Under the pieces are notes generated by a model, which saw only the letters and a program-made list of their open reading frames with translations, searched no databases and was not told the DNA's origin. The position numbers were made by a program, and so were the translations under genes. DNA of 64,000 bases from Erythrobacter litoralis HTCC2594 (GTDB lineage Bacteria; Pseudomonadota; Alphaproteobacteria; Sphingomonadales; Sphingomonadaceae): assembly GCF_000013005.1 (NCBI RefSeq), contig NC_007722.1, forward strand, positions 563,501 through 627,500, read 5' to 3'. Of this stretch, positions 38,205 through 54,737 are shown piece after piece (within the stretch, counting starts at the first letter, position 1; every line of letters starts with the position of its first letter).

Positions 38205-38247
38205 GCGACCAGCTAGCGGCCTGAGGCCCCCGCCTTCGCGGGGGCTC
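38205..38247. repeat. Dispersed repeat family C, right half, at the end of rarD
   Basis: GGCCTGAGGCCCCCGCCTTC followed by GCGGGGGCTCT contains a perfect hairpin (GCCCCCGC/GCGGGGGC) and is preceded by GGCGACCAG. It matches the right half of the element at 54649-54737 (CCGACCAGGTGGCCTGAG, CCTTCGCTGGGGCTC). The left half is too degraded to align. The rarD stop codon and last residues lie within it. Confidence 0.75.
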
Positions 38248-39127
38248 TGCTCTTCGCCCACATGTCCCACACGAAAATCGCCAAGGCGGTCCAGATGAAG
38301 GCGAAACAGATTGCTTGAGCCAAGAGCAATTCCTGCCGGAACACCGTCAGTCCCAGCACGAAAACGATACTGGGCGCGAGGAACTGGATGAAGCCGAGCT
38401 GTGAATAGTCCATCCGCTTGGCTGCGACTGCGAACATCAGCAGGGGAATGGCGGTGAACACGCCGCCCATCATGATCCAGAAGCTGAGCCATGGCGTCAC
38501 GCCGAATGACGATCCGCCCGGCGTTCCTGCATACCATGCGGCGATGCCGCAGGCAGGGAGCAACAGCAGCGCGCTTTCGATGGTGAGGCCAGGCAGCGAT
38601 CCGACCGGCACCTGCTTCCTGAGCAGGCCGTAGGTCCCGAAGCTGAAGGCGAGGGTGAGGCTGATCCACAACGTCGTCAGCGCGCCCGTTGCCAGCACCG
38701 CGACCCCGATCGCTGCCAGACCAACCGCGAGCCATTGCGCGCGCGACAGCTTCTCGCGCAAAACCAGCGTGCCGAGCAGCACGTTCAGCAAAGGATTGAT
38801 GTAATAGCCCAAACTCGCGGCATAGACCTGCTTTTCGTAGATCGCCCAGGTGTAGACGAACCAGTTGGTCGCGATCAGCGCCGAGCTTCCCAGCAAGACC
38901 AGCAGCACCCGCCGATTCCCGAGCGCTGCGCGCAATTCGGGCCATTGCCTGCGCACCAGCACGATCAGCACGCAGACCGGCAGCGTCCAGATGATCCGCC
39001 AGCCGACCAGTTCGAATGGCGGCACCGCGCTGACGATGATGAGATAGAGCGGTAGGAAACCCCAGATGATGTAGGCCCCGAGCGCAGCCGGCAGGCCGGA
39101 GGGTTGCGGGATAGGGGTCGGGTTCAT
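38213..39127 (-). CDS. rarD: EamA/RarD family permease
   Basis: A 304-residue drug/metabolite transporter superfamily permease with ten helices. LGAYIIWGFLPLYL at the N-terminus and ATNWFVYTWAIYEKQVYAASLGYYINPL are RarD signatures. Substrate unknown (chloramphenicol sensitivity in E. coli relatives). The C-terminal tail RAPAKAGASGR is encoded by an inverted repeat and replaces whatever native tail existed. It is convergent with pyrC. Confidence 0.9.
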   Translation of the reverse strand: MNPTPIPQPSGLPAALGAYIIWGFLPLYLIIVSAVPPFELVGWRIIWTLPVCVLIVLVRRQWPELRAALGNRRVLLVLLGSSALIATNWFVYTWAIYEKQVYAASLGYYINPLLNVLLGTLVLREKLSRAQWLAVGLAAIGVAVLATGALTTLWISLTLAFSFGTYGLLRKQVPVGSLPGLTIESALLLLPACGIAAWYAGTPGGSSFGVTPWLSFWIMMGGVFTAIPLLMFAVAAKRMDYSQLGFIQFLAPSIVFVLGLTVFRQELLLAQAICFAFIWTALAIFVWDMWAKSRAPAKAGASGR

Positions 39128-52775: not shown

Positions 52776-53606
52776 TCAGGCGTCCCAGTCACCGACGGTG
52801 CCCATCCATAGCGCGGTGGCGGCGATGGCCGCGGTCTCGCCGCGCAGGATGCGCGGGCCGAGCGTGATGGCGCGGGCCTGCGGGTGTGCGCGGATGGCCT
52901 TGCGCTCGGCATCGTCGAAGCCGCCTTCGGGTCCGATGAGCAGAGCGGCGCCCCCGCGAAGGCGGGGGCCTCGAGCCGCTTGGTCGTCGAGGTGTGGGTC
53001 TTTACCTGCCTGAGGTCCCTGCCTTCGCAGGGACTCGCTGTAGGTAACAAATGCCTCGCCCGCCGGCGCTCCGCCCAGTTCGTCGGCGAAGAACAGCGCA
53101 CGATCCTCCGGCCAGTCGCGCAAGAGCGAATCCAGCTTCACCGGTTCGGCCAGTTCGGGCAGCGCGGTGCGCGCGCATTGCTCGGCCGCTTCGGTGACGA
53201 TGGCGCGCGCGCGTTCGGCATTGAGCTTGTCGGCGACGCAGCGGCGGGTGACGACCGGGCGGATCGCGCGGACACCGAGCTCGGTGGCTTTCTCCAGCAC
53301 CAGGTCGAAGCGGTCTTTCTTGAGCAGGGCAGGACAGAGCCAGAAATCGGGCACCTGCTCGCGCTCGCGCAGCTTTTCGACCGGCTCCAGCGTGACAATG
53401 CGTTTTTCGACGTCGGTGACCTTGCAGGCCCATTCCCCGGTCGCGTCGTCGCACAGGATCACCGCGTCGCCCGCGCTTACCCGCATGACCTTGCCGAGAT
53501 AATGCGCGGCATTGCCGTCGACGGTGACAGCTGTGCCCGCCGCGATGGGTTCGGGCACGAACAGGCGTGGAGCGGAGCGGGGTGGCCAGGCTGGGGTGGC
53601 GGGCAT
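52776..53606 (-). CDS. rsmE: 16S rRNA (uracil(1498)-N(3))-methyltransferase with an in-frame repeat insertion
   Basis: A 276-residue RsmE with an N-terminal PUA-like domain and a SPOUT knot. PALLKKDRFDLVLEKATELGV, ALLIGPEGGFDDAE (222-235) and LGPRILRGETAAIAA mark the SAM-binding knot. E. coli RsmE is 243 residues. Most of the difference is residues 191-220 (ESLRRQGPQA, then GKDPHLDDQA...), which are encoded by a dispersed inverted repeat and lie just before the knot. The reading frame is kept, so the protein is probably functional. Confidence 0.93.
   Translation of the reverse strand: MPATPAWPPRSAPRLFVPEPIAAGTAVTVDGNAAHYLGKVMRVSAGDAVILCDDATGEWACKVTDVEKRIVTLEPVEKLREREQVPDFWLCPALLKKDRFDLVLEKATELGVRAIRPVVTRRCVADKLNAERARAIVTEAAEQCARTALPELAEPVKLDSLLRDWPEDRALFFADELGGAPAGEAFVTYSESLRRQGPQAGKDPHLDDQAARGPRLRGGAALLIGPEGGFDDAERKAIRAHPQARAITLGPRILRGETAAIAATALWMGTVGDWDA
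52949..53036. repeat. Dispersed paired-hairpin repeat, family C, inside rsmE
   Basis: Read on the minus strand: GAGTCCCTGCGAAGGCAGGG then ACCTCAGGCAGGT, about 26 nt, then GGCCCCCGCCTTCGCGGGGG. Each end is a hairpin (TCCCTGC/GCAGGGA and GCCCCCGC/GCGGGGGC). It matches the copy at 54649-54737 in both hairpins, in the ACCTCAGGCAGGT stretch and in the GACCA segment between them; lengths are 88 and 89 nt. Confidence 0.85.
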
Positions 53607-53627
53607 GGAGGGCGCTTAACCACATCC

Positions 53628-53706
53628 GTCATCCCAGCGGAAGCTGGGATCTCGTGCAGCGAGGTCGGACGGTGCTGAGGAAGATCCCAGCTTTCGCTGG
53701 GATGAC
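53628..53706. repeat. Dispersed inverted repeat, family B
   Basis: GTCATCCCAGCGGAAGCTGG at the left (53628-53652) and AGATCCCAGCTTTCGCTGGG at the right (53682-53706) are 25-nt inverted arms differing at one position, separated by 29 nt. Each arm is itself a hairpin (CCCAGC/GCTGGG). It fills the gap between the divergent rsmE and ubiA genes and must lie within or next to their promoters. Confidence 0.85.
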
Positions 53707-53728
53707 GAGTTGGGTAGGGATGCGCACA

Positions 53729-54648: not shown

Positions 54649-54737
54649 GAGTCCCAGCGGAGGCTGGGACCTCAGGCAGGTTGAGCACATTGTCTTTCCG
54701 ACCAGGTGGCCTGAGACCCCAGCCTTCGCTGGGGCTC
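54649..54737. repeat. Dispersed paired-hairpin repeat, family C, intergenic copy
   Basis: GAGTCCCAGCGGAGGCTGGG and ACCTCAGGCAGGT at the left, CCTGAGACCCCAGCCTTCGC and TGGGGCTC at the right. Each end is a hairpin, and ACCTCAGG/CCTGAG pair across the middle. It is the intergenic counterpart of the copy inside rsmE and lies between ubiA and the helicase gene. Confidence 0.85.

Follow-up and report, generated by a model that had tools for sequence, protein, structure and literature searches.

Residues ~191-219 of the RsmE protein of Erythrobacter litoralis HTCC2594 are, with near certainty, the product of a REP dimer inserted into the gene of this rRNA methyltransferase. The explanation favoured here as a whole, to which a probability of about two in three is given, is that the dimer is a non-autonomous element of the CGAG type that came to lie in a loop of RsmE, and that its family is moved by a GIY-YIG nuclease partner. 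The features concerned are located as follows in the window, that is, the whole stretch of 64,000 nucleotides that was analysed.

52776..53606, minus strand: rsmE, insert-bearing gene of 16S rRNA (uracil1498-N3)-methyltransferase, 276 aa (Pfam/NCBIfam and orthologues)
52949..53036, minus strand: CGAG-type REP dimer (two inverted hairpins and a spacer), about residues 191-219 of RsmE (alignment, folding, empty congeners)
53016..53033, minus strand: first hairpin arm of the rsmE dimer, in coding order TCCCTGC GAAG GCAGGGA
52950..52969, minus strand: second hairpin arm of the rsmE dimer, in coding order GCCCCCGC CTTC GCGGGGGC
53627..53707, plus strand: CGTC-type REP dimer in the rsmE-ubiA gap (alignment, folding)
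54649..54737, plus strand: copy of the CGAG-type dimer of rsmE, in the intergenic stretch downstream of ubiA (alignment, folding)
38206..38253, minus strand: half CGAG-type element, the hairpin of which gives a rarD-like gene (38213-39127, minus strand) its last residues, SRAPAKAGASGR, and its stop codon

The 276-residue protein is matched by the Pfam families Methyltrans_RNA and PUA_4, and its score against NCBIfam NF008696 lies over the family cut-off. The 88-nt element within the gene consists of two perfect hairpins, each with a 4-nt loop. Its resemblance to the 89-nt intergenic element, already noticed in an initial annotation made from the sequence of the window, was confirmed by an alignment with 74.5% identity over 94 nt (E 9.9e-14), both copies having ACCTCAGGCAGGT in common. 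Together with a short length of flanking sequence, the rsmE element folds 3.2 and 3.9 SD (two strands) above dinucleotide shuffles, the intergenic copy reaching 7.0 SD. A search of the whole genome (3.05 Mb, one contig) with the rsmE element returned 31 matching pieces at E<=1, nine of them at E<=1e-3, and the bare arm CCCNGCNNNNGCNGGG occurs 109 times genome-wide, against 11 occurrences of a reversed control. The observation is therefore real and beyond chance. Among the elements inspected in this genome, CGAG and CGTC are the two dominant arm types.

Intragenic REP dimers tagged with CGTC are already in print (Di Nocera 2013, PMC3733652; the comparisons made here draw on main-text portions of that paper), and they include the Rickettsia elements RPE-4 and RPE-6. 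In the same portions, CGTC REPs are reported in species from all alphaproteobacterial orders examined, in the truB and tRNA synthetase genes of E. litoralis and S. alaskensis among other places, and are described as having no dedicated transposase. Judged by its sequence, the rsmE element is a CGAG-tagged relative of these repeats. Like the CGTC REPs (PMC3733652), it is built of paired inverted hairpins with 4-nt loops and belongs to a dispersed, mostly intergenic family, some copies of which lie in replication, repair, tRNA synthetase and truB genes. Its stems of 7 and 8 bp (8 and 8 bp when the first arm is counted with its outer G-C pair) and its 4-nt loops agree with the 8-9 bp stems and 4-5 nt loops of CGTC REPs. 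Unlike the latter, which carry CGTC, TGTC or CCTC and end in a CCA-like tail, the rsmE and intergenic copies show CGAG or a trace of it as their tag, and the tail of the rsmE element is CCTCAGG. The main-text portions of the paper, as distinct from its supplementary gene list, name neither rsmE nor a link with GIY-YIG proteins, and a search at title and abstract level found no report of an insertion or palindromic repeat in RsmE. In-frame REPs being known already, the rsmE case is, as far as seen, a new instance.

The comparison with orthologues indicates that the segment was acquired. Within the genus, rsmE was found in four of the five genomes searched, two of them filled (E. litoralis and G001) and two empty (G002 and G004). 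With the empty orthologues of the same genus as reference, the net gain in RsmE amounts to 27 residues (81 nt), so that the element-encoded part corresponds approximately to residues 191-219; the initial annotation was thus right about an element carried in frame, its extent of residues 191-220 being slightly too wide. At the family level, 388 of 397 genomes gave an rsmE match, and the element was seen in three of these, namely E. litoralis, its congener G001 and HGW-Alphaproteobacteria-7, which belongs to another genus. This count was obtained with a naturally empty RsmE as query, any genome with a single match being counted as empty, with per-genome rows for part of the genomes only among the matches listed, and with matches in G021 and G207 that miss the loop region. 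Ten genomes gave two matches, three of which are interrupted at this loop; the other seven (G010, G037, G085, G270, G306, G338 and G391) were set aside, the cause being the end of a contig, a broken frame, a weak additional hit or an interruption outside the loop. Reading base by base, the element is missing from 11 near relatives, two congeners and nine genomes from the genus of HGW-Alphaproteobacteria-7. The initial annotation had regarded a similar segment in all orthologues as the mark of a native segment and had proposed looking for related RsmE proteins devoid of it; such relatives are present and only three genomes carry the segment, which rules out a native origin and supports the insertion reading.

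In some genomes, the same loop holds four to eight other extra residues. Three genomes of genus g14 (L008-L010) have eight additional residues there, KYPERGEGAH-like and possibly the trace of a decayed element.

Other genes of the same genome also contain the element, as the initial annotation had suggested might be found. Besides rsmE, copies open in frame occur in truB, in glyS (two sites) and in an nspC-like and an mmdA-like gene, the identities of TruB and GlyS being confirmed by Pfam and the two "-like" names corresponding to family matches under the cut-offs. In named genomes, a strict CGAG arm gave 91 matches in 86 stretches, distributed over Erythrobacter, Pelagerythrobacter, Altererythrobacter, Porphyrobacter, Qipengyuania, Alteraurantiacibacter and Novosphingobium, as well as over sphingomonadal, alphaproteobacterial and pseudomonadotal MAGs. 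A second arm lies within 110 nt in 79 of the 91 matches; the family, as with CGTC REPs, is therefore made mostly of HH dimers. A coding frame stays open across the element in at least 12 copies (83 of the 91 matches, in 80 of the 86 stretches, were scored), a lower bound since the frame scan missed the known rsmE copies, the end of that gene falling within the flank that was scored; for the six remaining stretches the open-frame scan alone applies, in which 60 of the 91 matches stay open for 30 codons on both sides, a figure that does not discriminate in GC-rich DNA. Read from the sequence, the 12 open cases are UvrA, MutS (three), PdhC (two), GlyS, QueE, an MtaB-like protein, a methyltransferase, an uncharacterised protein and a fusion of the SufD and SufS reading frames, one UvrA and one MutS being confirmed by Pfam. 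All three frames and both orientations occur among the open-frame copies.

The SufD-SufS case comes from a Novosphingobium MAG (L102, 1-2170), where the element joins apparent sufD and sufS genes in one open frame; this is possibly a REP-made gene fusion or a MAG artefact. Elements are also found immediately upstream of apparent serA (L111, L149, L167) and pth (L132) genes, the N-terminal open frames of which they could extend.

The pattern of a palindrome inserted in frame in a conserved gene is shared with the Rickettsia palindromic elements (PMC3733652 and portions of PMC10969869), a likeness drawn in the initial annotation that proves apt, two RPE families having been placed among the CGTC REPs (PMC3733652). 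The likeness is one of insertion pattern; the present elements differ in their hosts and in having a candidate nuclease, whereas the mover of RPEs is left unnamed in the portions of PMC10969869 considered. In the two genes for which orthologues without the insert were compared, rsmE and glyS (linker), the element stands in frame in a conserved gene that also exists without it. The GlyS linker exceeds 12 residues in 27 of 50 proteins, with peptide signatures of at least three types of repeat, in a set hand-picked from the 99 genomes searched, with one genome counted twice and L229 left out; on the strength of these signatures, it is a recurrent landing loop. Located after ESDI and before ELADL (L185:1582-3807, L208-L257), it bears peptides of the CGTC/CGAG, RPEPVEG or SPLxGEG type, depending on the genome. 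Near residue 189 of GlyS, three genera (L238, L239, L240) have a 28-residue insert, KSDPKSRNFG.P.E.FKDKNPTV.N, which is not REP-like.

In the three filled rsmE genes, the left junction falls on one and the same codon (F, four codons, GAG TCC), with frame and orientation also shared, as would be expected from one old insertion or from the transfer of an rsmE segment between genera. However, in a tree of 39 RsmE proteins built with the loop excluded (two of the 41 loci, L019 and L063, were left out, their frame not having been found), HGW-Alphaproteobacteria-7 groups with two element-free genomes of its own genus (100/98), and its loop residues flanking the element agree with those of element-free genomes of that genus. 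Repeated hits at one site do occur, as seen from the different repeat types held by one GlyS linker across genomes, and a single origin or transfer is accordingly improbable. The separate tree position of the second genus suggests that there were probably two insertions, in the same loop, frame and orientation. As to whether E. litoralis and G001 are sisters, rsmE gives nearly equal numbers of sites for the three possible pairings (14, 12 and 11), and a sister relation is favoured by gshA, with 90.5% identity versus 87.7 and 86.7%. Inspection of the rsmE and plasmid junctions by eye revealed no clear target-site duplication.

An AlphaFold model of RsmE (39 sequences) has a mean pLDDT of 90.9, with values of 77 for residues 191-200, 50 for 201-210 and 63 for 211-220. 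In this model, the helix ahead of the insert extends to residue 196 and the strand before GPEGG (220-224) is formed. In 4j3c, the solved RsmE structure nearest in sequence, this loop counts 17 residues, versus 42 in the protein studied here. The inserted segment is most likely a flexible loop, being modelled as a low-confidence loop ahead of the knot strand, and the early suggestion that the reading frame was kept and the SPOUT knot left intact agrees with both the orthologue comparison and the model.

Between E. litoralis and G001, the rsmE element matches at 68 of 87 positions, and none of the 15 stem pairs counted has been lost, not even the three in which both sides have changed. This conservation is what could be expected if the segment had been recruited, selection acting on the peptide or on hairpins in the mRNA because of a part that they play in how RsmE is expressed or works. 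Intact hairpins are explained equally well, though, by independent insertions or by conversion from other copies, and the first arm of the G001 element is identical to that of the E. litoralis intergenic copy; the kept pairs could reflect any of the three, selection, conversion or independent insertion. In addition, a segment restricted to three of the 388 genomes argues against recruitment, and a single selected peptide is ruled out by the use of three frames and both orientations in other copies of the element. Recruitment is thus given little credence, and the segment is better regarded as a tolerated insertion.

The candidate for the enzyme that moves these repeats came from the arms themselves. 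Four arm pairs of the E. litoralis genome are 343-388 nt apart, each of them enclosing an ORF of ~95 aa for a GIY-YIG protein; the genome has nine matches to PF01541 in all, one within a 793-codon frame read as uvrC. In the CGAG-type gene (G000:C1:1656374-1656787, L193), the left side is a complete dimer and the right side a single arm. A nuclease profile was built from eight arm-flanked proteins and used to scan the loci gathered, proteins with at least 100 bits being taken as REP type; outside the window genome, 60 nuclease loci had been taken in order of PF01541 match strength from E 2.3e-16, with two that lay at the end of a contig and six stronger rows without a locus also left out. The scan yielded 63 distinct REP-type ORFs, of which 43 are flanked within 130 nt by a matched inverted repeat (score of at least 14) that is often a tagged hairpin near the gene ends; the remaining 20 have none at this score and distance. 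The proportion is 37 of 55 when the eight seeds are removed. By comparison, a matched repeat was found in 5 of 3000 random windows from element-bearing loci, in 11.55% of 3906 combinations of the left flank of one locus with the right flank of another, and around 7 of 38 other GIY-YIG ORFs.

Eleven positions are invariant across the 63 REP-type nucleases, including Y7, Y18, G20, R28, E65 and N84. The conserved Y, Y, R, E and N (and G) of GIY-YIG proteins are catalytic residues. The nucleases thereby share with GIY-YIG homing endonucleases and UPF0213 proteins (PDB 1zg2, 1ywl) both the domain and its conserved residues. Unlike the homing endonucleases, they have no added Pfam domain, since in the five proteins scanned GIY-YIG (PF01541) was the sole domain and no NUMOD-type DNA-binding domain was found, and they are located between REP hairpins rather than in an intron or intein.

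The type of arm follows the phylogeny of the nuclease. With arm labels assigned to 50 nucleases having a repeat score of at least 12, seven changes of arm type are required (minimum 6), compared with a mean of 28.8 after shuffling and with none of 200 shuffles as low, on a tree of short proteins with many forks without resolution. An earlier labelling, in which most CGTC-CCxGC arms stood under 'other', required 10 changes versus 29.6. The CGAG (7), TTGCGAG (6) and GTGC (4) arms each need a single change, the CTGAAC arms (13) two and the CGTC-CCxGC arms (17) four, and the seven CGAG nucleases all fall in one clade (100/99). Moreover, a CGAG nuclease element of G001 and a short E. litoralis dimer are alike over 38 nt at 89%, beyond the hairpin. 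The association of GIY-YIG genes with CGTC/CGAG REPs is well supported by these sequence comparisons. No paper linking GIY-YIG proteins to REPs, palindromes or miniature inverted repeats was found at the level of titles and abstracts, most subscription papers lying outside that scope, and the presence of REP arms that flank GIY-YIG nuclease genes and co-segregate with them is new as far as these searches reach.

In the mechanism proposed, the short non-autonomous palindrome would be a head-to-head pair of CGAG-tagged REP hairpins, kin to the alphaproteobacterial CGTC REPs, that landed in a variable loop of RsmE just ahead of the GPEGG knot strand, kept the frame and was tolerated. The ~95-aa GIY-YIG nuclease gene located between like hairpin arms would be its autonomous partner. 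Each nuclease would recognise its own REP arms and then cut or nick them, and copying at the break would spread full arm-gene-arm elements together with short dimers, as thought for RAYTs and GTAG REPs. We infer that the nuclease causes the REPs to move, that short elements arise from long ones, and that the rsmE copy itself transposed by the same route. The broader proposition, that a solitary ~95-aa GIY-YIG nuclease mobilises CGTC/CGAG REPs as a class of hairpin-ended elements unrelated to RAYTs, with short derivatives that enter genes in frame and strike particular loops more than once (those of RsmE and GlyS), appears somewhat better than an even bet. If true, it would provide a source of in-frame insertions of ~25 residues in housekeeping enzymes, with landing loops that recur.

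The arrangement resembles the RAYT/REPtron system of GTAG REPs (PMC3733652), in which the gene of a small DNA-cutting enzyme lies between the REPs that it is thought to move and short dimers occur without the gene. The candidate enzyme is, unlike in that system, a GIY-YIG nuclease and not a Y1 tyrosine transposase, and the E. litoralis genome has no match to Y1_Tnp (PF01797) and hence no RAYT gene by this measure. In 99 family genomes, the arm excess over control correlated with the PF01541 count (Spearman 0.51, p 7e-8), the correlation with Y1_Tnp falling short of significance (0.16, p 0.12), in an analysis that ignores kinship and with PF01541 counts that include UvrC and other subfamilies. 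A RAYT was rejected as the mover on account of this weak correlation and of the missing Y1_Tnp match. Where PF01541 matched no more than once (25 genomes), the median arm excess was 10; it was 34 in the other 74. Of the 33 REP-rich genomes (excess of at least 40), 32 match PF01541 two or more times, one match usually being UvrC, and seven have Y1_Tnp, which is found in 17 of the 99. A nuclease gene with the same arms, tracking their type and present in nearly all REP-rich genomes examined, makes the question of the mover directly testable.

It could also be considered that no dedicated enzyme is involved, REP dimers being spread by replication or repair (template switching, ectopic copying) and nuclease genes simply sharing the tolerated intergenic sites. 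Palindromes do promote slippage, no Y1_Tnp transposase is at hand in E. litoralis, and a single site in four sister Sphingobium plasmids, described below, has different hairpin kinds. Nevertheless, the excess of matched flanks over random windows and the arm types that track nuclease phylogeny are hard to obtain without a functional link, and spread by host processes is judged very improbable. Movement of the REPs by the nuclease is the most likely mechanism.

The main rival to movement by the nuclease is that the GIY-YIG gene is a homing-type passenger, having its target site in the spacer of the REP dimer, with the REPs and the rsmE copy moved otherwise. GIY-YIG is a classic homing domain (portions of PMC1564403), and a gene inside a dimer spacer would likewise show matched arms and track REP type. 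The plasmid records bear on this alternative. Fifteen were taken from the 35 with a relative of the nuclease, and matched arms were found in eight: Novosphingobium aromaticivorans pNL2, Azospirillum lipoferum 4B, Sinorhizobium meliloti, Rhizobium CIAT894, Neorhizobium, Shinella and two Sphingobium, these last being the same locus in related plasmids. Six records (Photobacterium, Planktothrix, Spirosoma, an Aeromonas record, Neisseria and R. tumorigenes) are without matched arms, and the fifteenth, Sinorhizobium C101, received no score, the end of the gene not having been located. In A. lipoferum 4B, the nuclease gene lies between sufB and sufC with a whole dimer on either side, and the entire dimer-gene-dimer unit is absent from three relatives, A. 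ramasamyi, A. oryzae and B510. In Sphingobium TomMM7A, an arm-gene-arm unit lies between fnrL and a regulator gene; at that site, TomTYG64 has a single palindrome bounded by CGTC on either side, TomTYG74 a slightly altered one, and TomTYG72 and TomTYG65 hairpins of other sequence. The arm-gene-arm unit is therefore present or absent among close relatives, in Azospirillum as in the Sphingobium plasmids, in the manner of a transposable element.

Against a passenger, no intact dimer of matching type is found at the sister sites compared: the three Azospirillum have no dimer, and the Sphingobium sisters have a solo palindrome (two) or other hairpins (two). Furthermore, the gene has a whole dimer on either side in A. 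lipoferum, L142 and L286, instead of sitting inside a single one, and GIY-YIG is the only domain that Pfam finds in the five proteins scanned. The passenger reading is for these reasons considered unlikely, and the nuclease is retained as the probable mover.

The gap between fnrL and the regulator gene contains hairpins of three sequences in the four sister Sphingobium plasmids (L375, L376, L378 and L379). The hairpins of other sequence in two of them suggest that the site may attract any kind of hairpin, and the gap may be a landing site for several kinds or the position of a terminator.
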